A stretch of 64,000 bases of DNA from an uncultured Saprospiraceae bacterium. GTDB taxonomy: Bacteria; Bacteroidota; Bacteroidia; Chitinophagales; Saprospiraceae. Under the pieces are notes generated by a model that did no database searches, was not told the DNA's origin, and saw only the letters and a list, made by a program, of their open reading frames with translations. Below are positions 4,842-48,651 of the stretch, piece by piece (position 1 is the first letter of the stretch; every line of letters starts with the position of its first letter). Made by a program: the position numbers and the translations under genes. Location: the NCBI GenBank assembly GCA_937921595.1, contig CAKZTD010000136.1, forward strand, positions 1-64,000. The letters are read 5' to 3'.

Positions 4842-4869
4842 AAAGCTGACTTTTATAGTCAGCTTTTTT
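4842..4869 (+). terminator. Rho-independent terminator after adhesin gene
   Basis: A 9-bp stem AAAGCTGAC / GTCAGCTTT with a 7-base loop is followed by a T run. It lies 50 bases after the adhesin stop and separates it from the PorP/SprF-like gene. The rest of the 4792-5148 gap shows no gene or clear site. Confidence 0.85.
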
Positions 4870-5148
4870 CTTTTATATAAGCCTTGTTTGTTCTAAGCTT
4901 TAAACATTATGTTGACGAGGTAATTTGCCCCTATAGAATGATCAAACAACATTGTTCCTCCGTTTAGATCAGGAGTTTTGATTTAAAATATATAAGTATT
5001 GTGACAGTCATTCTCTTGGCATGGTAATTGAAAAATAAGTATTGTTATAAGTCCCTACCCCTCTATCATAATTCCTTCCCCTTTGAATATTGATATTCTT
5101 TCCCTCCAGGTAAGAAAGTAAAACATAACCATACGCTATAAATTAACC

Positions 5149-6183: not shown

Positions 6184-6207
6184 GTCGATTTAAAATAAAA
6201 ATAAAAA

Positions 6208-6247
6208 AAATAGGGAAGGCACTTTCAGGGAGTCTTCCCTATTTTTA
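6208..6247 (+). terminator. Rho-independent terminator after PorP/SprF gene
   Basis: An A-rich flank leads into TAGGGAAG, a 15-base loop, then CTTCCCTA and a T run. It lies 25 bases after the stop codon. Confidence 0.85.
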
Positions 6248-6401
6248 TTTGTATTCGTTGAAAATGGAATTTACTTGGTATGAGTTTTGATTTATCCCTA
6301 TTTATTATGAGAATGCTGTAACATATTGTAAATCAGTTATATATGTCAGCATATTTCCCCTGTCTATAATAGACAGAGAATTTTTTTTAAAACTAACATA
6401 C

Positions 6402-9400: not shown

Positions 9401-10538
9401 TGAAGTTACATTGAATTTGAATGTAAACAGTGCTCCAATGGTAAATCTTAATGCGGAGATTTGTCAAGGAGAAACTTATACGATTGGCTCAGAAACGTTT
9501 ACTTCAACAGGTGTTTATACCCTTGTGATGGATGCTGTTAATGGTTGCGATAGTACAATAGTCTTAGATTTATTAGTTAATGAAACCTCTACTGAAATTG
9601 CTGCAACGATATGTAATGGAGAATCTTATACTGTAGGTAGTTCTACTTTTACAACAACGGGCGTTTACCCAGTTGTATTAACCGCTACTAGTGGTTGTGG
9701 AGATAGTACTGTAACACTTACATTGACTGTTGATCCAACAGCAGTTAATCTTCCTGCATCAATCTGTGATGGCGAAGTTTATACTTTAGATGGTGTAGAA
9801 TATACAGAGACTGGCGTTTATACTCAAACAATTGTTTCTGCTGCAGGATGTGATGTAGAATACACTTTAGATCTTGCAGTGAATGAAGTTGTTGTTAGTG
9901 ATTTGACAGAAATGATTTGTGCTGGCGAATCTATTACAATTGGAGGAGATACCTATACTGAAACAGGAATGTATACGAATTTGATGACTTCATCAGCAGG
10001 ATGTGATAGTACTATTAATCTTAACCTTACAGTACTAGATCCAATTGAAACAACAGATGACATTACACATGATAATGGTTCAGGAATCGGAGCAATTGAT
10101 TTGACGGTATCAGGAGGAATGGCGCCATATACTTTTAACTGGAGTAACAATGAAACAACTGAGGATATTTCAGGCTTAGGAGTAGGAACGTTTACGGTAG
10201 TCGTAACAGATGCAAATGGTTGTACAGAAGAATATTCGTTCTTCGTTGATCAGTTAGAAGCAATTTTTGATGTGGATGCTAATATCGCTTTGGAGATTTA
10301 TCCGAACCCTGCATCTGCGGGCGGACAAGTAAATCTTTCATTCAATATCAGTCAACAACAGACTTTAAAAATTCAGTTGTATGATAATGTTGGGAAGCGT
10401 ATCAGTGCTCAAGAGGTTGATTTCTTAAGTGGAAATACAATCCACAAATTAAGATTACCACAAGTACAAGGTTTATATCAAATCTATATCGAAACAGAAG
10501 AAGGGAAATTTAAAACGATTCCTTTGGCTGTAAAATAG
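6402..10538 (+). CDS. Secreted double beta-propeller adhesin with CDS repeats, SprB repeat and type A sorting domain
   Basis: 1,378 residues. A signal peptide ('MRSILRVTCLLFFLTLF...SYAQ') is followed by about 14 blades of roughly 53 residues (residues ~27-760), each with 'SPDGN.VYV' and 'DDAVAIFSR', resembling lactonase/YVTN propellers; 14 blades suggests two seven-bladed propellers. Next come about nine 50-residue units with 'GCDST' (to ~1205), related to those in the adhesin at 1-4791 but more diverged. A single SprB repeat follows ('GGMAPYTFNWSNNE', 'VVVTDANGCTEEY'), then a type A T9SS sorting domain starting 'LEIYPNPASAGG' (~1295-1378). It is predicted to be exported by T9SS and anchored or released at the surface. 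No catalytic residues are identified; a binding role is inferred. Confidence 0.9.
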   Translation: MRSILRVTCLLFFLTLFMNINLSYAQLLFEGMVFDGMGKPLLENASSVAVSPDGNFTYVSSYNDNAVTVYSRDVSGAPGVLTFVETKKNEVEGVVGMNGVYHLSISPDGNHVYVTGSGDNALVLFNRNAVDGTLTYVTTYWNNTNGIEGLGGANYVDMPADGNHVYVAGPDDNAVAIFSRNVITGELTFVNYVADGLGDVTEMNYPLALMVSPDGKNIYVSSYGDEALNVFERDLITGELSFVEHFQNNVAGISGLTGAYAPYVTPDGAQVYVSGLDDDAIVAFNRNQSSGELTYVDTYVDDSNGVDGVSGAQTIRASEDGNFLFVAASNEDAVGIFSRNADNGVLTFLSTIREGVDGVTGMSYPTYIELSDDGVNMYVTGFASASLVVFVLDEVTGMPTFQSTETGAGLGVSGLDGSTAAAISSDGNFVYVAGNNSDAIVVFSRDEDSGMLTYVQEIEDASATDGLNGINCVAISPDGNYVYTTGFWDKAIVVFERNTTTGMLTYIERYKDGISGVDGLNGANFITVSPDGNNVYTTGFWEHAVAVFDVNANGTLSFVEVFKDGVAGVNGLNRASGVTVSPDGNHIYVAGYNDNALTIFDRAANGTLTFNETLIDGQGDVDGIQRINSVVVSPDNAQVYATGLNDDAVAIFNRDAATGDLTFAGQAKNGVGDVIGLDGPTRLAISANGEHIYVTSANDDAIVALRRNVTNGELVFEGAVFDTDPGVNGLDGAQFVAVTPDGKHMYTASSVDDAVATFSCTYIFNSSQVICEGDSVVVGSTAYLESGLYIDTFSFGACKSVSTLELVVQPANTVLNVEICNGDAYMFNGVSYNTTGQQVANLTSSYGCDSTVTLNLMVVSEFANQTVDANICQGETYPGGYTTTGVYTDTYTTSFGCDSTVTINLTVNPVYNETIDAEICEGDFYILGTQNYIATGTFVESFTTVNGCDSVITLNLSVVEPEVVMNETICSNEVFTIGGNSYSEEGVYNFILESGAGCDSEVTLNLNVNSAPMVNLNAEICQGETYTIGSETFTSTGVYTLVMDAVNGCDSTIVLDLLVNETSTEIAATICNGESYTVGSSTFTTTGVYPVVLTATSGCGDSTVTLTLTVDPTAVNLPASICDGEVYTLDGVEYTETGVYTQTIVSAAGCDVEYTLDLAVNEVVVSDLTEMICAGESITIGGDTYTETGMYTNLMTSSAGCDSTINLNLTVLDPIETTDDITHDNGSGIGAIDLTVSGGMAPYTFNWSNNETTEDISGLGVGTFTVVVTDANGCTEEYSFFVDQLEAIFDVDANIALEIYPNPASAGGQVNLSFNISQQQTLKIQLYDNVGKRISAQEVDFLSGNTIHKLRLPQVQGLYQIYIETEEGKFKTIPLAVK

Positions 10539-10565
10539 ATCTTGATTTCAATAAAAAATTAAAAT

Positions 10566-10597
10566 AAAAAGGGTTTGGCTTATAGTCAAACCCTTTT
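10566..10597 (+). terminator. Rho-independent terminator after propeller adhesin
   Basis: Stem AAAAAGGGTTTG / CAAACCCTTTTT with a 9-base loop and T-rich tail, 28 bases after the stop codon. Confidence 0.9.
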
Positions 10598-10781
10598 TGT
10601 TTTTAAGAAATAATAATTTTTTGCTTTCTCTATTATTCAGATCTACAGATTTTATTCCTTTCATCCTTTCCAATTTACCAGTTATCACATTTTCTTGAAG
10701 TATTATATAAAAATGGAATATATTGAATCTGAAGTAAAAGGAAACTTTTGCTTCGATTTATGAGTCAGTAAGTTCGTTATT

Positions 10782-10829
10782 AAAAGTTGCCATGTATTTT
10801 TCATTATGAAGATGCATTTGGCAACTTTT
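10782..10829 (+). repeat. Perfect 11-bp inverted repeat in intergenic gap
   Basis: AAAAGTTGCCA at 10782-10792 is repeated inverted as TGGCAACTTTT at 10819-10829, with a 26-base loop that itself contains TTCATTATGAA. A short T-rich tail follows. It could be a second terminator or a transcript-processing hairpin. Confidence 0.55.
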
Positions 10830-11218
10830 GTTTTATGGTTCAAATTGACTAAATTTTCACCCAATCTTGGAAGAAGACTTAGTCAGGTTAATGATAAATA
10901 TTTATTATTAGCATATTTAAAATACCAATTTTACGGTATATAAGAACCTTTAATTAAACCTATCTTTGTAAGGCATTCTTTTTGGAGAATCTTTGAGGAC
11001 TTTTATAACAATTAGGAACGAAAAACCAACCTTCAATATCTTATATTGATTTGTTTCAGAACATATTCTTAAACAACTCTTGAGAAAAGGAACGAATTTT
11101 ATCATTATTTGTAATTCCCCACACCTATTTTAAAATTCCCTTTTTTCTCTATTATTTCTACTTATAACCGATTTCTGCAAAATTATTTAATAGACGAATA
11201 TCTATTGATGCTATTCTA

Positions 11219-14200
11219 ATGAGTGGTATTGAATATCTATTTATGTCAAAAACAATGAGCATGAAATCATTTTACTCGCTAGTCGTATTTTTAACACTAG
11301 CTGTTTTTTCCTTTGGACAGACGAATTGGACAGGAGCAATTGATTCCGATTGGAATAATGCAGGAAACTGGACAGCTGGAGTTCCCACGACAGGTGTACT
11401 GACCACTGTTTTAGCCAGTCCTAATGACCCTGTAATTTCTACAGGTACAACTATCGACTTTACTTTACAGAATTTTGCAACGATTACTTTTGAGGCTGAT
11501 GTTCAAAATGCATCAACGATTGCAAACTTTGGAGGAGCTACGATTTTTAATAATGCAAGTTTTATAAACAATGCTGGGCAGTTTATCAACAACAATGGTA
11601 TGATTGTCAATAACCTTCAACTTACAAATGAAGGAACGATTCAAAGTAATGGAACGGGAGCATTAGAAAATGCGACAACAGGTACTTTCGATAATGCGGC
11701 AGGAGCTGCGATTAATAATTTTGCTACAATAATCAATGATGGTACTTTTAATAATGATGGCAATATTGCAAATTGCAATACCGTAGATAATTCTGGCGAT
11801 TTCAATAATAATGGACCACTTAATCAAGGTGCCAATGGTATTTTTAATAATTTGAATGGCGGTGTTTTAAATAATAGTAGTAACATAACCAACAGTGGAG
11901 AAATTAATAACAATATAGGTGGTGAGATAGTCAATGATAACATTGTTCAAAATAATTCAAATGGTTCGATTAGTAATGATGGATTATTTATAAATAATGA
12001 TGCAGTAACGAATGCTGGTCTTTTTGACAATACTGGAACGTTTGAAAATAATGAAATCTTCACTAACGATTTTGGTGCAACTTTCTCCAATACTTCAGGA
12101 GATATTTTAAATAACTCTTGTGCTACTTTTCGTCAATTTACTTCAAATCCAATTTCTTGTAACAGTGCTTGTTCTTTCATAAATAATGGAACAGTATACC
12201 AAATTGGAGGAACTATCGATATAACTGGAGGTACAGGAATTATCTTGGATGACATAAATATTCAACCTTCTCCAACTGCAAATTGTCAGGATATTATCGT
12301 AGTTCTAGATGCAAGTGGAGAAGCAATGATTGAAGCTTTGGATGTAGATAATAATAGTTCTGCAGGGTATTGTACGCTTGCAAGTTTGGACATTAATATC
12401 AATACTTTTACTTGTGATAACATCGGAGCTAATGTGGTTACACTTACCATTACAGATGGAGTAGGGGCGACTGGTTTTTGTACTGCGATCGTTATGGTAG
12501 TAGATGGAACTGCTCCGATTTTTAATAACTGTCCCGCAGATATGACCATCAATCTTGATGCTGGTGAGTGTAATGCTTATGTGAATTTTAATGAACCAAC
12601 GGCAAATGATATTTGTGGAGTTGTTGTGACTAAAATAGATAATACAGGACTCAATTCAGGAGATCCTTTTCCAATCGGAACAACAACGATTGAATACCAA
12701 GCAACGGATGGTTCTAATATTTCAACTTGTTCTTTTAGTATTACTGTTCAGGAATTTCCAAATCCGGAGACGAGTTTATTTTGTAATTTTCTAGAACAAA
12801 TATCTTTGGATGAAAATTGTGAAGCACTAGTCGGAGCAGATGATATTTTAGAAGGAGGCCCTTATGGTTGTTATGATAATTATACGATCGATATTTTTTA
12901 TGATATAGAAATGACTCAGCCTGTTCCAACAAGTCCCTATGTGACTGGTCAGGATCTTGATGACACTTTAGTTGTTATGGTTACGGAGCCATTTATTGGA
13001 AACTCATGTTGGGGTAAGATTTTTATAAAAGATTATTTAGCTCCTCAAATTACTTGTGAAAACTTGACGATCACCTGTTTAGAAGACTCAAGTCCCGACG
13101 CTCTTGGTTATCCTGCTACTTCGGATAATTGTGATAACGGATTGTTTCCAAGTTTCGAAGATGAAGAAACTGGAGGTGGTTGCGTAGATGGAATTATCAC
13201 GAGAACATGGACTATTACTGATGCCAGTGGGAATTCAAATTCTTGTCAACAAATTATTACGATTGTTCGACCGGATTTTGGTTTAGTCGTTTTTCCGCTT
13301 GATCTAAATAACTTAGAATTACCTGCTCTAGATTGTTCAAATAACCCAAACACTCATCCAGACTATACCGGATGGCCAACGATCAGTGGACAGAACATTT
13401 TAAATAGTACGTGTAATTTTAGCTCGACTTATACCGATCAATTAATACAAGTTTGTGAAGGTTCTTATGACATCGTTCGATCTTGGGAAGTGTGGGATTG
13501 GTGTACAAGTACCATGATGGCAGACATTCAAATTATCAAAGTTATGGATAATGATGGTGCAGCACTAATTTGTCCTGCAGACATAGAATTATTAACTGGA
13601 ACTAACAGTTGTGTAGCTTCAGTCATTCTTCCTGAGCCAATAATCAATGATGCTTGTGCTAATGCTTCAATAACAAATATTACATCTTCAGCAGGATCAA
13701 TCAGTAATGGTGTTTTAATCAACTTACCAGTTGGAACGCACACGGTTACGTACACGATCGAAGATGCTTGCGAGAATGAATCCAGCTGTTCAATAAATGT
13801 AATAGTAACTGATGAGGTTGCTCCAGTTGCGATTTGCGAATCTACTCATACGGTTGGTTTGACAATCGATGAACCAACCTTAGTTCCAGCTTTAGTATTT
13901 GATGATGGAAGTTATGACAATTGTTCTGGCTTGATTTATCAAGTAAGAAGAATGGACAATTCAAACTGTCCTGGATTTGATGGAACACCTTTCGGGCAAT
14001 TTGTACCATTTTACTGTTGTGATGTTGGAGGTCCAAATGTGATGATCGAATTAAGAGTAACTGATGTTTCTGGAAATTCAAATTCATGTATGGTTGAAGT
14101 TGTCGTAGAAGATAAATTAAATCCAGCAATTCAATGTCCTCCAGATATTACTTTGGATTGCTATGATGATTATACAGATTTAAGTGTAACAGGAGAAGCG

Positions 14201-16540
14201 ATTGCTAGTGATAATTGTAGCTATGTTTTGACACATACTGATGATGTGAATATTGATAATTGTGGGGGAGGAGTGGTCAACAGAATTTGGACGGCAACTG
14301 ATCCGGGTGGACGTACTGCATCTTGTTTACAGAGAGTTTATGTGGTCAATGATGCACCGTTTTATATTACGGATACAGAATGTAATAATGCAAATCCAAG
14401 TGATGGAGTCATCTGGCCTTGTGATTATGAAACTTCAAATTGTGCTGCTGTTACTGATCTTTCTGTAACTGGACAACCTCAGATTATCGAAGATGGTTGT
14501 GATTTGGTTTCTGTGACTCATGAAGATATTGAGTTGCCAATTACAGAGCCTGCATGTTCTAAAATAATTAGAGTCTGGACCATCCATGATTGGTGTCAGT
14601 ATGATGCTGTAACTGGTGAAGGTGTTTGGACTTATAATCAGATTATAAAAATTTTAAATACTCAAGCTCCGGAATTTACTTCTGATTGTGAAGACCAAAG
14701 TTTCTGTAGTTATGAGCAAGATTGTGGAGATGCACCGGTTGAACTTCTTGCTGCTGCAACGGATGATTGTACCGATGAAGCGGATTTGAATTTCAATTAT
14801 GAAATTGATTTGAATAATGATGGTAGTGTAGATTTTTCTGCAAATGGAAATGATGCAAGTGGAGCTTATCCATTAGGGACACATAAGATCAAATGGTTTG
14901 TCGAAGATGGTTGTGGAAATGTCAATACCTGTGATTACCTTTTTGTAATTGCTGATTGTAAAAATCCTACGCCTTATTGTATCAATGGAATAGCGATGAC
15001 TTTGATGCCAAATGTTAATCAAATAGAAATATGGGCGAATGATTTTGATCTTGGAAGCTACGACAACTGTGGAGTCGATGAGTTCTTGATGGTTTCTCCT
15101 TCTCAAGGACCAGGACAAAACCTTCCACCTGTTTCTGCTGGAGCTTCTCATGTTTTTGATTGTGATGATGTAGGAACACAAACGGTTGATATGTGGGTGA
15201 AAGACATTTTTGGAAATTGGGATTATTGTTCAACATATATCATTATTCAGGACAATGCCAACTCATGTCCAGCGCAAGATGATGTACAAGTGACTGGAGT
15301 TATTGAAAATGAATCTGGTGCGAGATTAGAATCTGTAATGGTTCATGTAGAAGGTAGTGCACCAGGTATTCCTGATCCTAATGTTACAGGAATAGATGGC
15401 GATTATGGTTTTCCAAATTTACCAATGGGTTATAATTATATGATTCAGCCAGAGAAAACAGATAATCCTTTGAATGGTGTTTCAACTTTTGACCTTGTCT
15501 TGATGAACAAACATATTCTTGGAATTCAAACATTAGATTCTCCTTACAAAATGATCGCTGCTGATATCAATGCATCATCTTCGATTTCGACTTTTGACAT
15601 GGTATTGTTGCGTCGTTTGATTTTGCAAATTGATGAAAATTTTACGTCTACAAATTCATGGAGATTTGTTGATGCTAACTATGTTTTTCCAAATCCAACA
15701 GATCCGTTTGGGATCGCTTTTCCTGAGGTATTTGAAATTGATAATTTAGAACAGGACATGGTCGGAAACTTTATAGCAGTGAAAACCGGAGATGTAAATG
15801 GCAATGCAGCGACCAATAGTTTTAATGGGGGAGGAGATGATCGAAATATGGAAGATCCATTAGTGTTTACTTTGAAAGATGAATTGTTGAATCCAGGTAG
15901 AGCTTATCAAGTGGATTTCACCGCTGCGGATATCAGTAGAATGAGCGGTTATCAATTTACCTTGACTTTTGACAAAGAGCTTTTGATTTTTAATAATATC
16001 ATTCCTGGTCAACTACCAGGATTAACGTTGAGTAATTTCGGATTCAATAAATTAGGAGAAGGTTCTTTGACGACAAGCTGGAATCAAAACGCTGATCTTT
16101 CAAGTTTGGATGAAGATGCTGTTTTGTTTAGCTTTATTTTCGAAGCGAAAACACAAACGAAGTGGAGTGAAAGTTTAAAGATTTCTTCTGAGTACACAAG
16201 AGCAGAAGCTTATAATTTAAATGCGGAAATTCTGAATGTAGTATTAGGTTTTGAATCATTGATAGAAGACGCTAAGCGATTTAAATTATTCCCTAATACT
16301 CCAAATCCATTTGCAGAAGAAACGCTGATCAGCTTTAATTTGCCAGAAGATTCTGAACTTATTTTCACTATACAGGATGTATCAGGGAAAGTATTACAAA
16401 ACCAAGAAACGCAAGCTCTTGAAGGGTATAATGAAATCCTCATTAGTAAAAAAGACCTAAATGGTCCTGGCGTTTATTTTTATACGATCAAAACGAAAAC
16501 TCATAGAGTGAGTCAAAAAATGATTTTGATTAAGGAGTAG
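11219..16540 (+). CDS. Giant secreted HYR/dockerin-like/cohesin-like protein with type A sorting domain
   Basis: Up to 1,773 residues. In-frame ATGs lie at 11219, 11243, 11255 and 11261; the signal peptide 'MKSFYSLVVFLTLAVFSFGQ' argues for 11255 or 11261, so the first 12-14 residues may not be translated. Residues ~20-380 are extremely rich in Asn with 'INN.GTINN'-type strands, probably a beta-helix. HYR-like modules follow ('APIFNNCPADMTINLDAG' and a second near residue 780) among Cys-rich 'NSNSC' modules. Around 1390-1560 are a carboxypeptidase-regulatory-like fold and dockerin-like loops ('STFDLVLMNKHILG', 'STFDMVLLRRLIL', 'VKTGDVNGNA'), then a cohesin-like domain and a C-terminal 'LFPNTPNPF' type A T9SS sorting domain. 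It is probably a surface or matrix scaffold. Modules are assigned by eye; function is unproven. Confidence 0.88.
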   Translation: MSGIEYLFMSKTMSMKSFYSLVVFLTLAVFSFGQTNWTGAIDSDWNNAGNWTAGVPTTGVLTTVLASPNDPVISTGTTIDFTLQNFATITFEADVQNASTIANFGGATIFNNASFINNAGQFINNNGMIVNNLQLTNEGTIQSNGTGALENATTGTFDNAAGAAINNFATIINDGTFNNDGNIANCNTVDNSGDFNNNGPLNQGANGIFNNLNGGVLNNSSNITNSGEINNNIGGEIVNDNIVQNNSNGSISNDGLFINNDAVTNAGLFDNTGTFENNEIFTNDFGATFSNTSGDILNNSCATFRQFTSNPISCNSACSFINNGTVYQIGGTIDITGGTGIILDDINIQPSPTANCQDIIVVLDASGEAMIEALDVDNNSSAGYCTLASLDININTFTCDNIGANVVTLTITDGVGATGFCTAIVMVVDGTAPIFNNCPADMTINLDAGECNAYVNFNEPTANDICGVVVTKIDNTGLNSGDPFPIGTTTIEYQATDGSNISTCSFSITVQEFPNPETSLFCNFLEQISLDENCEALVGADDILEGGPYGCYDNYTIDIFYDIEMTQPVPTSPYVTGQDLDDTLVVMVTEPFIGNSCWGKIFIKDYLAPQITCENLTITCLEDSSPDALGYPATSDNCDNGLFPSFEDEETGGGCVDGIITRTWTITDASGNSNSCQQIITIVRPDFGLVVFPLDLNNLELPALDCSNNPNTHPDYTGWPTISGQNILNSTCNFSSTYTDQLIQVCEGSYDIVRSWEVWDWCTSTMMADIQIIKVMDNDGAALICPADIELLTGTNSCVASVILPEPIINDACANASITNITSSAGSISNGVLINLPVGTHTVTYTIEDACENESSCSINVIVTDEVAPVAICESTHTVGLTIDEPTLVPALVFDDGSYDNCSGLIYQVRRMDNSNCPGFDGTPFGQFVPFYCCDVGGPNVMIELRVTDVSGNSNSCMVEVVVEDKLNPAIQCPPDITLDCYDDYTDLSVTGEAIASDNCSYVLTHTDDVNIDNCGGGVVNRIWTATDPGGRTASCLQRVYVVNDAPFYITDTECNNANPSDGVIWPCDYETSNCAAVTDLSVTGQPQIIEDGCDLVSVTHEDIELPITEPACSKIIRVWTIHDWCQYDAVTGEGVWTYNQIIKILNTQAPEFTSDCEDQSFCSYEQDCGDAPVELLAAATDDCTDEADLNFNYEIDLNNDGSVDFSANGNDASGAYPLGTHKIKWFVEDGCGNVNTCDYLFVIADCKNPTPYCINGIAMTLMPNVNQIEIWANDFDLGSYDNCGVDEFLMVSPSQGPGQNLPPVSAGASHVFDCDDVGTQTVDMWVKDIFGNWDYCSTYIIIQDNANSCPAQDDVQVTGVIENESGARLESVMVHVEGSAPGIPDPNVTGIDGDYGFPNLPMGYNYMIQPEKTDNPLNGVSTFDLVLMNKHILGIQTLDSPYKMIAADINASSSISTFDMVLLRRLILQIDENFTSTNSWRFVDANYVFPNPTDPFGIAFPEVFEIDNLEQDMVGNFIAVKTGDVNGNAATNSFNGGGDDRNMEDPLVFTLKDELLNPGRAYQVDFTAADISRMSGYQFTLTFDKELLIFNNIIPGQLPGLTLSNFGFNKLGEGSLTTSWNQNADLSSLDEDAVLFSFIFEAKTQTKWSESLKISSEYTRAEAYNLNAEILNVVLGFESLIEDAKRFKLFPNTPNPFAEETLISFNLPEDSELIFTIQDVSGKVLQNQETQALEGYNEILISKKDLNGPGVYFYTIKTKTHRVSQKMILIKE

Positions 16541-26130: not shown

Positions 26131-26937
26131 TTACCAACGCTTTCCTAACTGCAAAGTTAAGTAAAGATTGATAAAATAAGGCCGGTTTTCTGCAGATCCG
26201 TCACGATCGACCATAATTGGCACTTCTTTGAAAAAAGCATCAACCATGATTCCTGCTTCGAAAGCTTTGACAAACTCATCAAATGCACCCCAATCGAAAT
26301 GGACGCTGAATTTACCATGAATGCCAGGGATAGGTTTTATTTCTTTGAATCCTTTGCTGAAGCCTGAAGCTCCATAGATTCTATTGATGTCTGTAAAGCT
26401 GTCGTAATTTGTGCCGTCATATCTTTCGCTCACAAGGTAGATGTCGTTGGTCGAACCATCTTGCTGTCTCCAAAAGTCTAGGTAATATGGTTTTTGCAAT
26501 CCTAAAGTTGGACCTGCTTCGTAGCTAATTCCTACTGCTACACCTTTCCTTTTTGCTTTTTCAGAATAATATCTTTTGACACCAATTCCTGCACGAATAG
26601 CATAGAGGTTATTTTGTTTTCCAAATACGAAGGATTTAGAAGTTCTTCCGCTAAATTGACTCGGATAATCAAAACTATGTCGGAATTCTTTCGGGTGTTT
26701 AAGTTCACCTACTTCAATGTGATAATATTTCGTTTTATAATAAGACTGAATTTTTCCAATATTAGCAGCAACGGCCCAGCCATTGGTGTGTAATCTAAGG
26801 TCAAAGGATAATTCTTTGTCATAAACAATACCTTTGCTTTCCTCAGCAAATTGCTTAGGTTGAAATGTCCCATTCTGAGCAAATGTAACACCTGAAAATA
26901 GGCAGATAAAAAGGAAAAATGTTAGAGTCCTGTACAT
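26131..26937 (-). CDS. Predicted outer-membrane beta-barrel protein, unknown function
   Basis: 268 residues with a signal peptide (1-20, 'CLFSGVTFAQ'). Alternating strands such as 'SFDLRLHTNGWAVAANIG', 'LYAIRAGIGVKRYY' and 'VAVGISYEAGPTLGL', and the C-terminal 'YFINLYLTLQLGKRW', indicate a barrel with an aromatic last residue. No enzyme motif is visible. It is upstream of lipA on the same strand with a 104-base gap and is probably transcribed on its own. Confidence 0.7.
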   Translation of the reverse strand: MYRTLTFFLFICLFSGVTFAQNGTFQPKQFAEESKGIVYDKELSFDLRLHTNGWAVAANIGKIQSYYKTKYYHIEVGELKHPKEFRHSFDYPSQFSGRTSKSFVFGKQNNLYAIRAGIGVKRYYSEKAKRKGVAVGISYEAGPTLGLQKPYYLDFWRQQDGSTNDIYLVSERYDGTNYDSFTDINRIYGASGFSKGFKEIKPIPGIHGKFSVHFDWGAFDEFVKAFEAGIMVDAFFKEVPIMVDRDGSAENRPYFINLYLTLQLGKRW

Positions 26938-27275: not shown

Positions 27276-28382
27276 TTAGACCATATATTCCAAATCAAAG
27301 CTTACCGTAATACTAAGTTCTTTTGGGTTTTTACTCACATCAACACTGCTTTTTTGGAGATCGAGTAATTGTTTTACGATCGATAAGCGGTAGATCATAG
27401 TAGAGTAGTCTTGTTCAGACAAGAAGGTTGTCTTTTTATTCAGAAGTTCAACAACTTGAAAGTTGATGATTAATGTATTTTCCTTTTTAGAGGATTGATT
27501 GATTTTGATTTCAAAGGTTGATTCTGGATGCAAGCTAACCGCATTTCCTACAATGCCCCAAAGCGTCTGTTTTAAATAAAGATAATTTCCCTTTAATGAT
27601 TTTGGAATGTTTTCATCAATCGTGAAAGTTAACTTAGTTTGGGTATTTTTTTTACGAATTAAATCCTTTGTTTCATTACAAAGGTCGGTAAGGAAGAAAT
27701 CTTGATTTGCAAAATTCGGCATATTAGAAATATTAGTCGTTTCTAATTCGTCGAGTATCAGATTAAGTTGCTTGAGTGTAACTCTTAATTGTTGGGTATA
27801 TTTACTGTCTTTATTTTCTAAAGCTCCAGATAATAAATAAGTGATGCCGTCAAGCGCATTAATTGGAGCAAGTAAAGCAGATTTTATTTTATTGAAGTAA
27901 GTCAGTTGGAGATGATCCAGACTTTCGATAATTATATTTTGCTGAATATTGATGTCTTCAATATTTTTAAAAAGCTGATGCCTTCTTTCCAAAGTTTCGC
28001 GATGAATTTCAAGTTCGTTTTTTCTTTGTTGGAACTGTTTGAAATCTTCATAAAGGTCGGTGTAGTCATAGACACACCAGAGTAATAACTCTTCTTTATC
28101 AATGATGATTTTTGAAAAACTAAAATCGTAAGTACCTGGAAGTTGTGGAATAGGCGTTTCCATTTTATTAAAAGAGATGTTGGATTGGTTAGAAGCCGTT
28201 TCCCAGATATTGGTAAAAATACTCTCTAGGAAAGGAAACCAATCAATTACAGGCTTATCTTTTAAAGGAATGGTATCGAATATGGAGTCACAACTTGAGA
28301 CAATTACTGCCTGTTTGTTTAACAGTATCAATTGGCTAAATTTGGAACGATGTCTAAGCTGAAATTCAAGAAGTTGTTGCAT
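27276..28382 (-). CDS. Degenerate histidine-kinase-like signalling protein, last gene of GTPase operon
   Basis: 368 residues. The N-terminal ~115 look like a PAS-type sensor ('AVIVSSCDSIFDTIP', 'FSKIIIDKEELLLWCVYDYTDL'), followed by a coiled coil (~115-155), a HisKA-like dimer helix and an ATPase-like fold. At the phospho-acceptor site the sequence is 'IKSALLAPINALDG': Ser168 replaces the His. In the ATPase part an Asn-containing 'WGIVGNAV' remains but the DxGxG boxes are not recognisable. It therefore probably cannot autophosphorylate and may be a scaffold or sensor. Its ATG overlaps the GTPase stop by one base (TAATG), so translation is coupled. Confidence 0.7.
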   Translation of the reverse strand: MQQLLEFQLRHRSKFSQLILLNKQAVIVSSCDSIFDTIPLKDKPVIDWFPFLESIFTNIWETASNQSNISFNKMETPIPQLPGTYDFSFSKIIIDKEELLLWCVYDYTDLYEDFKQFQQRKNELEIHRETLERRHQLFKNIEDINIQQNIIIESLDHLQLTYFNKIKSALLAPINALDGITYLLSGALENKDSKYTQQLRVTLKQLNLILDELETTNISNMPNFANQDFFLTDLCNETKDLIRKKNTQTKLTFTIDENIPKSLKGNYLYLKQTLWGIVGNAVSLHPESTFEIKINQSSKKENTLIINFQVVELLNKKTTFLSEQDYSTMIYRLSIVKQLLDLQKSSVDVSKNPKELSITVSFDLEYMV

Positions 28383-28867
28383 TATTCAAGGAATGCTTTG
28401 CCTAGGCTCAAAAATAAATCTTCAACGTTTTCTCCGGTTTTAGCACTGGTAATAATATCCCAGGGAGTCGTTAAAATCGCTTTTACTTCTTCTATTTTTT
28501 CAGGAGTAAGAAGATCGCATTTATTTCCTACCACTTTGACAATAGCATCATTGGCCATGCCATTGAGGTATTCGATATCACTTGAAATATTTTTGTAAGT
28601 AGAAGGTCTGGTGAGATCAAAAATATAGATAATGCCACTGGATCCAAGAAAATAAGAATTCGGAATTTTATCCTGAGAAACCTCTCCTGCAATATCCCAA
28701 AGTAAGAGTGAAACTTCTTCTCCTTCTATTTCAATGGATTTTTTGTTGACTTTTACACCAATAGTCGTCAAATACTTATCATCAAATTTATTGTAGATAA
28801 ATTTATTGAAAAGAGATGTTTTTCCAACGCCGAAACTTCCAGTAAGGATAATCTTTTTACTAATCAT
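28382..28867 (-). CDS. Ras/Rab-like small GTPase
   Basis: 161 residues, a single G domain. G1 is 'GSFGVGKTS' (10-18), the switch I Thr lies in 'TTIG' (34-37), G3 is 'WDIAGE' (57-62), G4 is 'NKCD' (115-118) and G5 is 'SAK' (141-143). The order and length match eukaryotic Ras/Rab proteins and the prokaryotic Rup/MglA-type GTPases; the SAK motif makes it more Rab-like than MglA. The residue equivalent to Ras Gln61 is Glu62. There is no C-terminal lipidation motif. It lies 5 bases after the longin-like gene and overlaps the kinase-like gene, so the encoded proteins are likely partners. It is presumably a cytosolic switch. Confidence 0.88.
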   Translation of the reverse strand: MISKKIILTGSFGVGKTSLFNKFIYNKFDDKYLTTIGVKVNKKSIEIEGEEVSLLLWDIAGEVSQDKIPNSYFLGSSGIIYIFDLTRPSTYKNISSDIEYLNGMANDAIVKVVGNKCDLLTPEKIEEVKAILTTPWDIITSAKTGENVEDLFLSLGKAFLE

Positions 28868-28872
28868 ATTGC

Positions 28873-29877
28873 TTATGCGGATTTAAGTGCTTGTTCTGTC
28901 TGAAAGAAATAATCTTTAAGTCTATCAGAAATACGGGTATTTATAGAGTCGTCAATATCTTTAGGGATGTGTTTTAATTCTAATTCTGCAAAATCATGCA
29001 GTTTAGTAGAGATTTCATCCTTTTCAGTAGCAGAAATTGATCCACTCATTGCGACTGCAATATAGTAAGAATAAAAGTTTTGAATATAGATTTTATAATT
29101 TCCATATTCGATCATTTCTAATTCTTGTTTTTCTCTTTGAAAAGCGTCCTCAACGAAAGCTTTAATTGCGGTAAACATTCCTGCAATCACATCCTGATCC
29201 ATTGTCTTTTCCATTGCGGCACTTCCTAATAATAATCCGGAGTCTCTTTGGATGACATAGACTTCTTCGATGATTGTTTCGTCAGCATCGCTCAATATTT
29301 CTTCAGTACCTTTGCTTTTATAGCCAAATATTTTCCCAAAGAGACCTTGCTTAGAAAAGGTGCTTTTGACTTGGCTGTCAATTCTCTCCTTTAACATTTG
29401 AAATTGGTGCGTGATTGATTTTCGAATCAATTTACCAAGTACTGGGGTGATGACATTTAGAATTTCTTCTTGAGAATCTTTAAGTTTTCGTTCAATTAGC
29501 TTATTGACGGCAACTTTAAACTCTTTCGGATAATTCTGTTTAAGTAATTCAATATGATCTTCGACGATCGGAGATACTTTTTCAGCAAGCTGATCTTTGG
29601 TTTGAATCAAAGCATTGAGACCAGCTAAATCAGCTTCCGTTTTTTGGAGCCGATCCTCCATCATACCTTTTACTATAGAACGAAATTCTTCTGGATAATT
29701 TTGACGAAATGTTTGAAGATGATCCTGAACAATAGGCGAAACTCTCTCAGATAGTAAATCATAGCTATCTAAAATATCACGAACCTCCTGGATTTTGGTG
29801 CGATCTCCAGTCAGTAATATCTCTTGAAGCTGTTCCATCAAGAGTTTGTCTTTCTGATTGTTACTAATAGAATTCAT
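28873..29877 (-). CDS. Duplicated-helix protein with longin/roadblock-like C-terminal domain
   Basis: 334 residues, no signal peptide. Residues ~42-77 and ~97-132 are an internal duplication ('VSPIVQDHLQTFRQNYPEEF' and 'VSPIVEDHIELLKQNYPKEF'). A helical linker (~140-200) leads to a domain (~203-300) beginning 'IEEVYVIQRDSGLLLGSA' and continuing 'DVIAGMFTAIKAFVEDAF', which by pattern resembles longin or roadblock/LC7 modules that bind small GTPases. It lies between a coiled-coil gene and the GTPase in one operon, so a role as GTPase regulator or effector is inferred. I do not recognise a named family for the whole protein. Confidence 0.65.
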   Translation of the reverse strand: MNSISNNQKDKLLMEQLQEILLTGDRTKIQEVRDILDSYDLLSERVSPIVQDHLQTFRQNYPEEFRSIVKGMMEDRLQKTEADLAGLNALIQTKDQLAEKVSPIVEDHIELLKQNYPKEFKVAVNKLIERKLKDSQEEILNVITPVLGKLIRKSITHQFQMLKERIDSQVKSTFSKQGLFGKIFGYKSKGTEEILSDADETIIEEVYVIQRDSGLLLGSAAMEKTMDQDVIAGMFTAIKAFVEDAFQREKQELEMIEYGNYKIYIQNFYSYYIAVAMSGSISATEKDEISTKLHDFAELELKHIPKDIDDSINTRISDRLKDYFFQTEQALKSA

Positions 29878-29900
29878 GATAAAAGAATTGAGGTGAACAA

Positions 29901-30269
29901 TTATTCTCCCATCAATTGTTTGCTTACTTTATCTAGCATTTTTCCAAGTCGCATTTTATCGTCTTTACTAACTTTATCAATCCGGTTGTTCAATTTCTCG
30001 ACATTAGAAATAAGCTGCTTTTCAATATCTTCAAATTTCATGGTATGTTCTTTATCCATGCTTGAGAAAGATTTTTGAGTAGCAGAATCCAGTTCTGTGA
30101 TTTTAGAAGAAAGCTCTTTTTTTAAATCAGCAATCTGTTCTTGAATTGTATTAAATCTAGCTTCGAAATCAGTAATTTGGTCACCCATCAAGATGTTACG
30201 GATCATGCCGATATCACCAAGATTTAAGCCATTGCCTTTATCGTTGTTATTGCCATTGCTATTTGCCAT
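29901..30269 (-). CDS. Small coiled-coil protein, first gene of GTPase operon
   Basis: 122 residues. An Asn/Gly-rich start (1-17) is followed by 'LGDIGMIRNILMGDQI' and then a continuous heptad-rich coiled coil to the end, with no signal peptide. It is 23 bases upstream of the duplicated-helix gene on the same strand. By composition it could be an oligomeric scaffold or tether. No family recognised. Confidence 0.65.
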   Translation of the reverse strand: MANSNGNNNDKGNGLNLGDIGMIRNILMGDQITDFEARFNTIQEQIADLKKELSSKITELDSATQKSFSSMDKEHTMKFEDIEKQLISNVEKLNNRIDKVSKDDKMRLGKMLDKVSKQLMGE

Positions 30270-36357: not shown

Positions 36358-37431
36358 TCAAGTATTTAAGGAAGAATCGCTCTGATCCTTTTTAATAAAT
36401 TGATCAATTAATTTTTGAGCAGCTCTAAATGGAGAAACTTTCTCAGCTGTCACTTCTGATTCGACTTGGTCGATCTGGTCTTTTATTTTTTTATCATTAT
36501 AAAATAATGACTTTAGTTGATAATTGATGCTTTCAAATAACCAGTATTTTGATTGTTGAATACGATGATGTTCAAAATAGTTGTTTTCAGTTGTATGTTT
36601 TTTATATGCTTCGACGGTATTCCAAACTTCTTTAATCCCTGTATTTTTCAAGGCCGAACAAGTCATCACTTTGGGGATCCAGTTGTTTTCCTTTGGAGGG
36701 AAAAGGTGTAAAGCATTTTTGTAAGCCTGTTTAGATTCTTTAGCTAGATTCATTCTTTCTTCATCTGCTTTGTTGACCACTACAATATCTGCCATTTCCA
36801 CAATTCCCCTTTTTATACCTTGCAAATCATCTCCAGCACCTGGAAGTAATAACAACATAAAGCAATCCACCATAGAGTGAACTGCAATTTCGGATTGCCC
36901 AACGCCTACGGTTTCAATTAAAATGGTGTCATAGCCAGCGGCTTCACATAAGATGATCGTTTCTCGAGTCTTTTGAGCAACACCACCTAAGGCAACTCCA
37001 GCAGGGGAGGGGCGAATAAATGCCCGGTTATCTGCGGCTAATTCTTGCATTCTGGTCTTATCTCCAAGAATACTGCCTTTGCTTATTTGGCTAGAGGGAT
37101 CGACAGCTAATACCGCGAGTTTATGATCTAAGGAAAGTAGGTGATTTCCTAGGGATTCTATAAAAGTACTTTTGCCGACTCCCGGGCTTCCCGTGATTCC
37201 AATTCGGAGTGAATTATTAGCATAAGGCAAACAGTTTTCGATCAAGTCTGAAGCGATTTTTTGATGCTCTGGAAGCTCACTTTCAATATAGGTGATTGCC
37301 TTACTTAGCAATACCCGATCCCCAGATAGGACGCCTTTTGTCAGAGTCTCCAGATCTAAGATCCTTTTTTTACCTTTTCCAAACCTTTTGGAAGCTTCCG
37401 GATTGATTGATCGATTTTCCTTTTTACTCAT
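36358..37431 (-). CDS. meaB: Methylmalonyl-CoA mutase-associated GTPase MeaB
   Basis: 357 residues. The P-loop 'GITGSPGVGKST', the family-specific 'VDPSSQISKGSILGDKTRM', 'VGVGQSEIAVHSMVD', 'LLLPGAGDDLQGIKRGI' and 'VVVNKADEE' identify MeaB/ArgK of the G3E family. MeaB guards methylmalonyl-CoA mutase, gating delivery of adenosylcobalamin and protecting it from inactivation. A mutase small subunit is encoded on the same strand at 40186-41274, supporting a propionate/methylmalonyl pathway here. The catalytic large subunit is not in the window. TTAACAC repeats lie upstream of its start. Confidence 0.95.
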   Translation of the reverse strand: MSKKENRSINPEASKRFGKGKKRILDLETLTKGVLSGDRVLLSKAITYIESELPEHQKIASDLIENCLPYANNSLRIGITGSPGVGKSTFIESLGNHLLSLDHKLAVLAVDPSSQISKGSILGDKTRMQELAADNRAFIRPSPAGVALGGVAQKTRETIILCEAAGYDTILIETVGVGQSEIAVHSMVDCFMLLLLPGAGDDLQGIKRGIVEMADIVVVNKADEERMNLAKESKQAYKNALHLFPPKENNWIPKVMTCSALKNTGIKEVWNTVEAYKKHTTENNYFEHHRIQQSKYWLFESINYQLKSLFYNDKKIKDQIDQVESEVTAEKVSPFRAAQKLIDQFIKKDQSDSSLNT

Positions 37432-40185: not shown

Positions 40186-41274
40186 CTAAGTATTTTTAAA
40201 TTTATCCCAGGCTTGTTCTGAAAATAGTCTGGTTAATTTTTCAATATAAAAGCTACCTGCAGCGGGATCAATAACCCGGTCCAGGTAGCTTTCCATTTTA
40301 AGGAGGTGCTGGACGTTTCGAGAAATCCTGTTTGTAAAAGAAGAACCGTTTTGATCTGCAGGTAATATAGTTAATCGATTCGTTCCACCAATGACTGCTG
40401 ACATAGCAATCGTCATAGATCGTATCATATTTGTATTAGTATTTTCATCAAAAGCTTTAGGATCAATATAAGCATCTATCGAGAGCAAGGTATCTTCTGC
40501 TCCGTAAGCTTTGAGCAAATTTGCCCAAAGAATTTTCAAAGACCTGATTTTTGCAATTTCTACAAAGTAGCTTGTCCCAATAGAGATCGACAATTCAATC
40601 TCTCCGACTTGATCAACCTCTACTTGCTGAAGCGCATGGTCCATTGATCGAAGTATTTCATAAATCGAATCTATTATTTTCTCTCCCGACGTATCCTGAT
40701 TTGAAAAATCCAGAAAAGTATTTTTAAAATTAGGGAAAAGCTTTCTAGCTAATTGGAGCGTATCTTTTTGATTAGGATCAGCCAGTTGAATAGATCCTGA
40801 CAAAGTTTTGCTTTCAATAGAATGAGACCGTACGTATTCGAAATAATTTTCTAAAAAAGTAGAATAATCAGGATTTGCACCTTCGATTTTGAAATGCGTC
40901 TGGACATATGCAAGCAGGATGTCTTGGAAAAGTGCAGAAATTGTTTCCACAGAAGGCACCTCTTTGAAAATAAACCTAGGCGCATTAACTCCATTTTCGA
41001 GAGCAGAAAGTACCAACTTATTGGTTTCTTTAGGATTTTCTACGATAAAATCCTCTCCAATAAGCCAATCATTGCTCGTTGCAGAATTATTATTGAGTGT
41101 TGTCTCTTGAATATTGTCGTCGCTATGATAAAAAGGGTCGATTGTCAAGTTTTCGCCTAATTGCCATTTCAAATCCTCTAAAGGCTTTCCTTTTAGGTCT
41201 TTAAGCACTTTTTCGAGCCATTCTTCTTTAGAAAGGGCTGGAAATTCTTTGAATAGATTTTTGTTATCTGACAT
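40186..41274 (-). CDS. mutA: Methylmalonyl-CoA mutase small subunit, barrel domain only
   Basis: 362 residues. 'LFKEFPALSKEEWLEKVLKDLKGKPLEDLKWQ' at the start and 'ILPADQNGSSFTNRISRNVQHLLKMESYLDRVIDPAAGSFYIE' near the end are characteristic of the MutA-type (non-catalytic) subunit's substrate-binding-barrel half. The usual C-terminal cobalamin-like domain is absent: the protein stops about 25 residues after the barrel at 'WDKFKNT', so it is much shorter than classical MutA (~600 residues). The stop is two bases from the convergent fasciclin stop. The partner large subunit is outside the window, and MeaB lies 2.8 kb away on the same strand. Confidence 0.88.
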   Translation of the reverse strand: MSDNKNLFKEFPALSKEEWLEKVLKDLKGKPLEDLKWQLGENLTIDPFYHSDDNIQETTLNNNSATSNDWLIGEDFIVENPKETNKLVLSALENGVNAPRFIFKEVPSVETISALFQDILLAYVQTHFKIEGANPDYSTFLENYFEYVRSHSIESKTLSGSIQLADPNQKDTLQLARKLFPNFKNTFLDFSNQDTSGEKIIDSIYEILRSMDHALQQVEVDQVGEIELSISIGTSYFVEIAKIRSLKILWANLLKAYGAEDTLLSIDAYIDPKAFDENTNTNMIRSMTIAMSAVIGGTNRLTILPADQNGSSFTNRISRNVQHLLKMESYLDRVIDPAAGSFYIEKLTRLFSEQAWDKFKNT

Positions 41275-46134: not shown

Positions 46135-48651
46135 TCAATTCATCATGCTTGTAATTTTGACTGCTCGCGGATTATTTTGCTCTTCAGAAAGAGATTTACT
46201 AATCGTAAAAAAGAAGGTTGTGCCTTTTTCGAATTGTGACTCTAGCCAGATCTTTCCTTCATGTTGCTCTACAATTTTTTTGCATAGAGCAAGGCCAATT
46301 CCTGTACCTTCATATTCGCCACTAGAATGTAATTTGGTGAAAAGAGAAAATATTTTATCAAAAAATTCTTCTTTAATTCCTATCCCATTGTCCTCTAAGG
46401 AAAAGTGGTAATCTGTTTCTGTTTCTTTACAGTTAATTTTAATCAATGGAGGTTGATCAATGGATTTGAATTTTATGCTATTAGAAATTAGGTTTTGAAA
46501 CAACTGTCTAAGACGGGTTGGGTCAGCAAAAATAATATTAGGCATTTTTCCAATCTCGATGTTAATATTATTTTCCTCAATATCTGTTTGTAATTCTTGG
46601 GTGATGCTATAAATCAATGTTTCGATACCGAAAAATTTAAATGAATTTTCTTGAGAACCCACTTTTGAGTAAGCTAATAAAGCTTCAATTAGTTTTCCCA
46701 TATTCTTAGAAGCTCCGATGATGAAATCTAGGAACTCTAATTCAGTTTTATCAAATTTATGACGAGCTCTTCTGGATATTAATTGGATATAACTCGTGAT
46801 TGTTCTTAGCGGTGCTTTTAGATCATGAGAAGCCATGTATGCGAAATTTTCTAATTGCATATTACTTTCAATATACTTTTGAAGATCTTCGTTTTTTTGA
46901 TTGAGTTCTTTGAGGGTGTCTTGAATGATTGCTTCTTGTTTGGTTTTTTCAGTGACATCTTTAAGAATAGAAACGATGACATTTTCATCCGGAGAAGGAA
47001 GTCTAAAAGATGCTATTTCTATATGTAAAAGTTGTCCATTGGCATCTTGAAGTTGGCATTGGTAAAGGATGCTATTGTTGGATATAATCTCTGATATTTT
47101 ATTTTTAAAAAAATTAAAAGTAGACTCACCATTTGCTTGGAATTCAGGGAAGAAGTTTGCTGTATTGTTTAAAATAGTTTCTTCATTAGTTGAAAATAGA
47201 TCGAGGATTTTAGAATTGCAACCAAGCCATTTTTTTTGATCAATATCGTAGACGAGTAAACCATCAAAAGCATTTTCGAAAATAGTTCGGTAACGTGATT
47301 CACTTTGTTTTAATGCATTCTCTGTCATCTTTCGATCAGTAATATCTCGTGTGATGTCTCTAGAGCCATTGAAGTTTCCATGTTCATCTTTGATTGCAAT
47401 GGAGTCTACTTCGATGTATTTTACTTTTCCGCCAGGGATGATGATTCTTCCTTGGAAGTTAGTATAATAACCTTCCGCTCTAAGCTTTTGAAAATATTTA
47501 GCAGATCTTTTAATATCTCCAGGATGAACAATATCTCCGATTCTTAGAGATTTTAAATCCTCTAGTTCAAATAGTTTTTTTGCTGCAGCATTGTATTCTG
47601 TAATGTTTCCTTCCTTATCAAGGATGATGATAGAGTCATGCATATTTTCAAAAATATCTCTATATTTTGATTTGCTATTTTCTAGAACTCTCTCTGTTTG
47701 AACTTTTGTTGTAATATCGAGGAAAGAGCAATTGGAACAAATGAAATTTTTATTTTCGTCATAAATACCAGAAATGAAAGCATCTGTGATCAATGGTGTT
47801 CCGTCCTTTTTTGTAAATATTTTTTGAGTTTTAAAACGAGTAACCTGTGCTGTTTTTAATTCCTGAAATTTTGTGATCATTTCAGGTGAATTTTCCATGC
47901 AATTTTTAATAATATCAAGTTCTATCATTTCTTCTTTTGTATAGCCGATCATTTTACAGAAGGAAGGATTGAAATTCTGAACGCTTAGGTTTTCATCAAA
48001 AACGATTATTCCTAATTGAGTGTTTTCAAACTGTATCCTAAATTTGTTTTCACTAGCTTCAAGTGCCTTTTCTTTGATATTATGAATGGTGATAATTTTT
48101 TGATAAATAAAAATTAAGGCTGAGATTTTATAAAGAAAAAGCCCAAAGAAAAGAATTACAGGGAAAACATTTTTTGGAATAATATTAAGTGATGTGTGAT
48201 CAGGAATTAAGGTGTGTGATAAAGCAAATAGGAGGATTCCAGAGACGATGAAAAATATAAAAAGTATAAACGACTTTCTTTGTGCATGAGCAAAGTAAAT
48301 GAAAATAGAAACACCTAATTGGATTAAATAAAATGGAGTCAAATAAGAGGGGAATAGAAAAGCGCTTATGCAAATAATTACATAACTGAAAAAAGTCGAT
48401 AAGTATATTGCTTCTTTATAAAATCCTTGAGCATTAAAATAAATAGCAATGCAGAAAACGATAATAACGGAGAGTGGAATAAAGCTTATCTCTAGCCCTT
48501 GATGTTGTAAAATACAATAGCAAAAAAAAGCAATAGTACTTAAAATTGCCAGAAGGCAATCTATATTGAAGAAAGTCTTAGCAAGACGTTCAATTGTTGA
48601 TGTAGATGAGTCAATACCAATATTTAGTATTGTCTTTGTTGAATTATTCAT
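46135..48651 (-). CDS. Multi-PAS membrane sensor histidine kinase
   Basis: 838 residues. Six or so transmembrane segments (residues ~28-190) are followed by three or four PAS domains (~205-325, 328-450, 455-575) with 'NFNPSFCKMIGYTKEEM', 'ITEYNAAAKKLFELEDL' and 'GSRDITRDITDRK'. HisKA has 'MASHDLKAPLRTI' with the phospho-His; the ATPase domain has 'FQNLISNSIKF', 'LEDNGIGIKEEFF' and 'GTGIGLALCKKIVEQHEG'. All catalytic boxes are present, unlike the degenerate kinase at 27276. It resembles Bacteroidota phytochrome-like/PAS kinases. No receiver or response regulator is adjacent, so it is an orphan kinase. Confidence 0.92.
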   Translation of the reverse strand: MNNSTKTILNIGIDSSTSTIERLAKTFFNIDCLLAILSTIAFFCYCILQHQGLEISFIPLSVIIVFCIAIYFNAQGFYKEAIYLSTFFSYVIICISAFLFPSYLTPFYLIQLGVSIFIYFAHAQRKSFILFIFFIVSGILLFALSHTLIPDHTSLNIIPKNVFPVILFFGLFLYKISALIFIYQKIITIHNIKEKALEASENKFRIQFENTQLGIIVFDENLSVQNFNPSFCKMIGYTKEEMIELDIIKNCMENSPEMITKFQELKTAQVTRFKTQKIFTKKDGTPLITDAFISGIYDENKNFICSNCSFLDITTKVQTERVLENSKSKYRDIFENMHDSIIILDKEGNITEYNAAAKKLFELEDLKSLRIGDIVHPGDIKRSAKYFQKLRAEGYYTNFQGRIIIPGGKVKYIEVDSIAIKDEHGNFNGSRDITRDITDRKMTENALKQSESRYRTIFENAFDGLLVYDIDQKKWLGCNSKILDLFSTNEETILNNTANFFPEFQANGESTFNFFKNKISEIISNNSILYQCQLQDANGQLLHIEIASFRLPSPDENVIVSILKDVTEKTKQEAIIQDTLKELNQKNEDLQKYIESNMQLENFAYMASHDLKAPLRTITSYIQLISRRARHKFDKTELEFLDFIIGASKNMGKLIEALLAYSKVGSQENSFKFFGIETLIYSITQELQTDIEENNINIEIGKMPNIIFADPTRLRQLFQNLISNSIKFKSIDQPPLIKINCKETETDYHFSLEDNGIGIKEEFFDKIFSLFTKLHSSGEYEGTGIGLALCKKIVEQHEGKIWLESQFEKGTTFFFTISKSLSEEQNNPRAVKITSMMN

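Follow-up and report, generated by a model that had tools for sequence, protein, structure and literature searches.

What does a Rab-like GTPase do in a compact bacterial operon? The question is raised by four co-directional open reading frames (ORFs) on the minus strand of contig CAKZTD010000136.1, which belongs to the genome of an uncultured Saprospiraceae bacterium (GCA_937921595.1; 8.0 Mb in 465 contigs); the 64,000-nucleotide stretch of this contig that was analysed is referred to here as the window. ORF1 to ORF4 encode proteins of 122, 334, 161 and 368 amino acids (aa), with gaps of 23, 5 and -1 bases, the last being a one-base overlap in TAATG. The coordinates given for them by an earlier sequence-only reading, which had taken the genes to be co-expressed, were confirmed, and a transcription-like unit was supported. 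The operon is real, conserved and non-random, and it represents a variant of a signalling operon that was already recorded for bacteria in 2014. The interpretation we favour, at somewhat better than even confidence, takes it for a stripped-down signalling system of the Group 1 Rup type, in which ORF2 would be the platform, ORF3 the switch, ORF1 the scaffold, and ORF4 the effector and possibly the GTPase-activating protein (GAP). The main gain is the probable identity of the conserved partner, ORF2, as a roadblock/longin-type protein, which gives the Rup system a testable mechanism.

ORF3 (28382..28867; this and all other operon features lie on the minus strand) is a complete Ras/Rab-type small GTPase, as the sequence-only reading had called it. 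The 161-aa protein matched Pfam Ras at 7.8e-32, and its nearest solved structures in a PDB search were Sec4, Rab14 and Rab1. The motifs G1 (GSFGVGKTS), switch I (TTIG), G3 (WDIAGE), G4 (NKCD) and G5 (SAK) were all present. It is the one stand-alone Ras-type GTPase of the window's own genome. The G3 motif (28682..28699) retains the Asp and carries Glu at the position of the catalytic Gln. Among 30 aligned GTPases, the Asp was conserved in all 30 and the Gln occurred in none, the position being occupied by Glu in 25 and by V, S, T, L and G once each; the GTPase of locus L095 has a Gln one residue beyond it.

These features are those of Group 1 Rup GTPases. According to excerpts of Wuichet & Sogaard-Andersen 2014 (PMC4316618), four components recur in Group 1 Rup neighbourhoods. 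The GTPase lacks the G3 Gln and is accompanied by a coiled-coil protein. A further protein carries a conserved unknown domain, in many cases with a transmembrane (TM) helix and OmpA after it. The output module, typically a kinase or a diguanylate cyclase/phosphodiesterase, has an invariant Gln in its N-terminal region. Supply of this Gln in trans to the GTPase was suggested there, and the neighbourhood was likened to the conservon. The Group 1 taxa include Bacteroidetes and Cyanobacteria, the reference of the Rup alignment is a Mesorhizobium loti protein, MglB coupling was found in 0/121 Rup-subclade sequences, and no Rup member had been experimentally characterised by 2014 (PMC4316618, excerpts). 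All Group 1 features tested were found in the window: Ras/Rab-like G1-G5 motifs, a G3 motif without Gln, an adjacent coiled coil, a protein with a domain of this unassigned kind, an output protein with a conserved N-terminal Gln, and no MglB partner (0 PF03259 matches at E 0.001 in the window's own genome). The four-gene combination, regarded as undescribed on the basis of the sequence, is therefore already in print (PMC4316618, excerpts). The ORF2 domain is common to the window and to OmpA-bearing relatives, and from this architecture we infer that it corresponds to the unknown domain of the 2014 excerpts. The system departs from the usual Group 1 form in that ORF2 lacks the TM helix and OmpA and the output kinase is degenerate or missing.

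The gene unit is conserved far beyond chance. An ORF2 homologue was identified in 20/60 relatives, with the window's genome counted, and all 20 showed the same-strand order ORF1-ORF2-ORF3. A separate GTPase profile search found a stand-alone GTPase copy at E below 1e-60 in each of these 20 genomes. Among the 40 ORF2-negative relatives, five had a GTPase match at 1e-5; a single one was stand-alone (genome G049, E 6.9e-35; ORF1 and ORF2 were not found near it), and the other four were weak matches inside frames of 466 aa or more. The association between ORF2 and GTPase in the 60 relatives gave a Fisher value of 5e-15, uncorrected for phylogeny. A phylum-wide draw of 395 genomes contained ORF2 in 14, including the window's own, and the GTPase occurred in all 13 further ORF2-positive genomes, that is, in 33/33 ORF2-positive genomes tested. 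The conserved co-occurrence that the sequence-only reading had asked to see was thus borne out. In 14 further ORF2 loci of the phylum, the GTPase lay directly downstream in seven and within 2 kb on the opposite strand in four; the coiled-coil gene adjoined ORF2 in 12. Genome G310 (loci L060 and L063) encodes two ORF2-type proteins and two good GTPase copies, each GTPase gene near an ORF2 gene and divergent from it. ORF1 (29901..30269), the first gene of the unit, encodes a 122-aa coiled-coil protein, and a homologue directly precedes the ORF2-type gene in Nostoc and Mesorhizobium as well. One point tells against a strict linkage: the GTPase lay on a different contig in three of the 14 further loci. 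Within the phylum draw, the GTPase search covered the ORF2-positive genomes and, of the 381 ORF2-negative ones, any that are also among the 60 relatives. Separately, stand-alone Rup-like GTPases occur in G049 (L094, 9037-9555), with the unusual G3 motif WDFGDL, and in G057 (L095, 8361-8858); no ORF1 or ORF2 homologues were found in the flanking DNA examined.

A recent mobile-cassette origin was considered and rejected. The genes upp and lipA flank the cassette in 8/33 and 3/33 loci, respectively, all within the loci of 19 relatives, and several loci end at contig edges. A 268-aa secreted-looking protein (26131-26937 in the window), which had no family match, was encoded near the operon in 4/33 loci searched, again all within the loci of the 19 relatives. 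The presence of upp and lipA beside the cassette among relatives therefore marks the unit as an old chromosomal resident there.

The near-perfect pairing of ORF2 with the GTPase also bears on the rival explanation that survives best. ORF2 could be only a nucleotide-independent scaffold or effector, with the GAP and the guanine nucleotide exchange factor (GEF) encoded elsewhere, the operon then being a protein-localisation module and no signalling switch. Roles other than GTPase regulation are known for some roadblock/longin proteins (PMC10933270, excerpts), and several cassettes have no catalytic output. Such a module is harder to reconcile with the pairing itself and with the repeated binding of small GTPases by the roadblock/longin superfamily (PMC3521125 and PMC10933270, excerpts), and we consider it unlikely.

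ORF2 (28873..29877) consists of a helical N-part, a helix containing PVLGKLIRK and a C-terminal roadblock/longin-like domain, modelled at residues 196-305 (28963..29292), in which the sequence-only reading had seen a likeness to the regulators of such GTPases. In Pfam, the domain from the window matched Fuz_longin_1 weakly (E 0.0047; 17.6 bits, where the cut-off is 26.1). Significant similarity to the roadblock/longin superfamily was reached with a pooled roadblock profile, built from 23 of 30 loci (L064-L093; seven were dropped for lack of a usable frame, a very long frame or near-duplication). In hhalign, a profile of 34 ORF2 C-domains scored 30.5 against these 23 roadblock proteins across 91 columns, compared with a mean of 11.5, a standard deviation of 2.2 and a maximum of 20.4 in 200 column shuffles, and with 11.8 for the reversed profile. 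Addition of Nostoc and Mesorhizobium (36 sequences) raised the score to 35.1, with a reported probability of 83%, and decoy profiles of PAS, GTPase, coiled-coil and ORF4 N-domain sequences gave 9.9-11.6. Furthermore, Fuz_longin_1 or Intu_longin_1 ranked first in Pfam for each of three consensus sequences of the domain (E 0.019, 0.18 and 0.046, below cut-off); in the case of the third, unrelated families followed closely. The ORF2 C-domain is thus a probable member of the roadblock/longin superfamily, and the earlier suggestion stands as a probable partner of the GTPase.

Several results weigh against this assignment. All Pfam longin matches fell below cut-off, Fuz_longin_1 matching 4/20 members (best E 0.0026) and Intu_longin_1 2/20; helical Pfam families matched single ORF2 members better, and Spore_III_AB also matched four. 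A scan of the 60 relatives with Fuz_longin_1 (PF19036) yielded 0 matches over cut-off; its best match was an ORF2 homologue, the window's ORF2 was not listed, and the remainder was noise-like. In PDB searches with the single sequence and with the profile, no match had an E-value below 0.29. Compared with individual roadblock subfamilies, the ORF2 profile scored 27.7, 20.8, 16.9 and 10.8. In control comparisons, the roadblock profile scored 21.4 against the ORF4 N-domain and 16.6 against PAS; the former value shows that the pooled profile yields somewhat raised scores, which slightly lowers confidence in the mechanism proposed here and slightly raises that in an unrelated fold. On that account, the ORF2 C-domain would be some other alpha/beta domain whose roadblock/longin likeness is compositional or coincidental. 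The sub-threshold Pfam scores, the weak single subfamilies and the 21.4 reached by the ORF4 N-domain agree with it, but the alignment runs end to end over about 90 columns, 0/200 shuffles attained the observed score, the reversed profile and the four decoy families stayed at 11.8 and 9.9-11.6, and a longin model came first for every consensus. An unrelated fold is therefore improbable, somewhat more so than the scaffold module.

Taking the ORF2 domain as a roadblock/longin relative, what is apparently new is that the unknown domain of Rup systems probably belongs to this superfamily, which would make them parallel to MglA/MglB, conservons and Rab/longin pairs. A likeness below ordinary search sensitivity fits the 0/121 MglB coupling in the excerpts of PMC4316618. 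Neither a later Rup study nor a roadblock/longin assignment of the Rup domain was found among the matches listed in a search of titles and abstract starts of the open-licence literature.

Eukaryotic Rab GTPases work with longin platforms such as Mon1-Ccz1, TRAPP and FUZ-INTU. The pairing of a Rab-type GTPase with a longin-like partner resembles these, and the Pfam models that fit the ORF2 domain best are those for the first longins of FUZ/MON1/HPS1 and INTU/CCZ1/HPS4. Unlike eukaryotic Rabs, ORF3 has no C-terminal cysteine and stands in a bacterial operon with two-component-type outputs. Homology of the ORF2 domain to eukaryotic longins is weakly supported. Longin domains were proposed in 2012 to stem from prokaryotic roadblock GAPs (PMC3521125, excerpts), and Rab-like GTPases beside longin-like partners in bacteria bear on the origin of eukaryotic Rab/longin regulation.

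The ORF2 of the window apparently presents a new, anchorless form. It contains no TM segment (highest 19-residue hydropathy 0.84) and had no OmpA match in the Pfam scan. ORF2 frames in other classes of the phylum reach 598-738 aa; OmpA was matched in 3/3 long frames scanned (L052, L055 and, slightly under cut-off, L059), and TM-like segments were present in both frames measured, those of L052 and L055. In a further observation, the OmpA-type ORF2 relative on the Mesorhizobium plasmid record L124 (1924-4989) contains, between its TM-like segment and the OmpA domain, a stretch that occurs four times at a period of 136 residues (starts at residues 357, 493, 629 and 765).

The output protein has also been reduced. 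ORF4 (27276..28382; 368 aa) comprises a PAS-like N-domain (residues 1-130, 27993..28382) and a degenerate histidine-kinase core (residues 131-368, 27279..27992). No Pfam match was obtained at E up to 1, and matches in NCBIfam to the kinases BarA, ArcB, CreC and PhoR were weak (best 5.6e-6). Alignment with the intact relatives L050 and L051 placed Ser at the phospho-His column, which agrees with the earlier description of a kinase relative without the phospho-His, and showed in addition that both glycine boxes are absent; ORF4 thus has neither the phospho-His nor the ATP-binding G1 and G2 boxes of an active histidine kinase. Among the 20 cassettes of the relatives, 11 contain a long ORF4 form (339-389 aa), with His at the phospho-His column in 0/11 and glycine boxes seen in none, and six contain a short form (107-159 aa) from which the kinase is missing. 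The alignment left out L027 (no 80-aa frame), L030 (visual inspection suggested a spurious frame) and L033, likewise on visual inspection an intact kinase with a different N-region; the N-domain counts omit one relative with a masked stretch. Identity between ORF4 and three same-genus homologues was 73, 57 and 52% in the N-domain vs 47, 34 and 27% in the kinase part. By comparison with the literature, a kinase that is degenerate (11/20) or missing (6/20) while the PAS-like N-domain and usually its Gln survive is apparently new. The same window also encodes an apparently ordinary sensor histidine kinase of 838 aa (46135-48651), which has a PAS domain and matched kinase families strongly.

A Gln just past the N-domain was shared by 20/21 aligned output proteins, including 5/6 short forms; the alignment of L055 is loose there. 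In ORF4 it opens the sequence QRKNE (residues 119-123, 28014..28028), and it is probably the invariant Gln of the 2014 excerpts (PMC4316618). The pattern Q-x-x-[NR]-[ED] occurred in 22/27 output proteins, compared with a mean of 2.9 and a maximum of 8 in shuffled sequences; it was picked after inspection of the sequences, so the count is descriptive, and for L062, whose frame begins too far upstream, the sequence was used from residue 61 onwards. In one of the 22, Mesorhizobium, the motif does not coincide with the aligned Gln. Some findings count against a uniform output module: no gene of the ORF4 family could be recognised in three of 20 cassettes, some short members were weak in sequence search (L024, E 0.0058; L026, no match) and were assigned by gene position and alignment, the motif was altered or missing at the aligned place in 6/27, and the PAS assignment, although the N-domain is collinear with PAS profiles across 93 columns, is weak (reported probability 4.7%).

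The pseudokinase is a local state, and outside the window's taxonomic order intact kinases or other enzymes hold the same gene position. Two genomes from a different order of the same class have, as the fourth gene, one for an intact hybrid kinase with HisKA, HATPase_c and receiver domains. In other genomes of the phylum, a kinase (four genomes) or a PAS/sigma-54-activator/helix-turn-helix protein (three genomes) comes after the GTPase; these sigma-54-dependent activators (L052, 4902-6656; L053, 11002-12756; L054, 4895-6679) follow a Rup-type GTPase and carry Q-x-x-N-[ED] in the N-region. Two of the four plasmid records that matched the GTPase extend the range: Nostoc sp. UHCC 0926 has the order coiled coil, OmpA-bearing ORF2-type protein, GTPase and PAS-kinase-receiver-Hpt protein, and Mesorhizobium sp. 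WSM1497 the order coiled coil, OmpA-bearing ORF2-type protein, 'Rab family GTPase' and adenylate/guanylate cyclase. The cyclase and sigma-54-activator outputs are not among the Group 1 outputs named in the excerpts of PMC4316618, and this exchangeability of outputs elsewhere is apparently new. Intact kinase, pseudokinase and absence of a kinase form a natural series which, if change ran in that direction, suggests that the core of the output protein is the PAS-like domain.

The stripped-down Rup reading would combine these observations as follows. ORF3 would act as the nucleotide switch. ORF2, probably a dimer, would provide a roadblock/longin-type platform to which the GTPase binds and which governs either its GDP/GTP state or its position, and ORF1 would serve as a coiled-coil scaffold. 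The orientation in which small GTPases are bound by roadblock/longin dimers is conserved (PMC10933270, excerpts). The PAS-like N-domain of ORF4 would be the GTPase-facing module of an exchangeable output protein, and its conserved Gln may supply what the active site of the Gln-less GTPase is missing, uniting effector and GAP in one protein. In the fuller form, ORF2 would be anchored via its TM helix and a peptidoglycan-binding OmpA domain, and the state of the GTPase would set kinase, cyclase or sigma-54-activator activity. In the window's taxonomic order, the anchor is absent and kinase activity appears to be lost, and the switch would therefore probably act in the cytoplasm by protein-protein contact. 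That the N-domain persists where the kinase has decayed or disappeared suggests a benefit of its contact with the GTPase even when no phosphate is transferred. As a bolder and tentative extension, which we hold to be possible rather than probable, Rup would represent a third bacterial class of GTPase-roadblock/longin switches, in which a Rab-type GTPase sits on a longin platform, the PAS-like output domain gives the Gln in trans, and the window's order lost anchor and kinase and kept the domain, leaving a GTPase cycle without enzymatic output. If this is true, Rab-longin pairing is common to bacteria and eukaryotes.

Other known systems resemble the operon in part. Actinobacterial conservons (AGPS; CvnA-CvnB-CvnC-CvnD) likewise form a four-gene unit with a small GTPase, a roadblock-superfamily protein, a kinase-like protein and a further protein; CvnD is an MglA of Group 2 and CvnB an MglB homologue (PMC4316618, excerpts), and CvnA8 autophosphorylates on His183 (PMC13343842, excerpts). 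The operon differs in its Rup/Rab-like GTPase with the G3 Asp kept, its coiled coil as the fourth protein and its kinase relative without phospho-His, and there was no PF03259 protein of the CvnB type; CvnC was not searched for. FtsZl1 clusters, which contain a distinct GTPase and OmpA proteins, were set aside: their GTPases form a diverged family (PMC2875224, excerpts), and the excerpts of PMC4316618 name no FtsZ-like/vWA gene for Rup neighbourhoods. The MglA/MglB polarity switch also places a small GTPase beside a roadblock-superfamily partner; unlike it, the unit includes a coiled coil and an output protein and keeps the G3 Asp in 30/30 GTPases, a residue replaced in MglA (Thr78 in Myxococcus MglA; PMC4316618 and PMC3000849, excerpts). 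The weakest rival, an MglA/MglB-like polarity or gliding switch coupled to the type IX secretion system (T9SS) and gliding, as the sequence-only reading had ventured, draws on the roadblock-like partner and on T9SS cargo and a PorP/SprF protein within the same window, but is very improbable and found no support, given that GldJ matched 59/60 relatives (57 of them at E below 1e-70, and only 3 above the family's curated cut-off) vs 20/60 for the operon, that operon-bearing G015 has weak GldJ matches only, that the nearest T9SS gene among the window proteins scanned ends 10.7 kb off, that related systems are present in Nostoc and Mesorhizobium, and that ORF3 retains the Asp absent from MglA.

The T9SS-related run itself spans 88-16540 of the window and encodes a type B sorting-domain protein (88-4791), a PorP/SprF-family protein (5149-6183) and type A sorting-domain proteins (6402-10538 and 11219-16540). 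On the other side of the operon, a MeaB-type GTPase (36358-37431) is encoded near a 362-aa protein (40186-41274) with a partial methylmalonyl-CoA mutase match.

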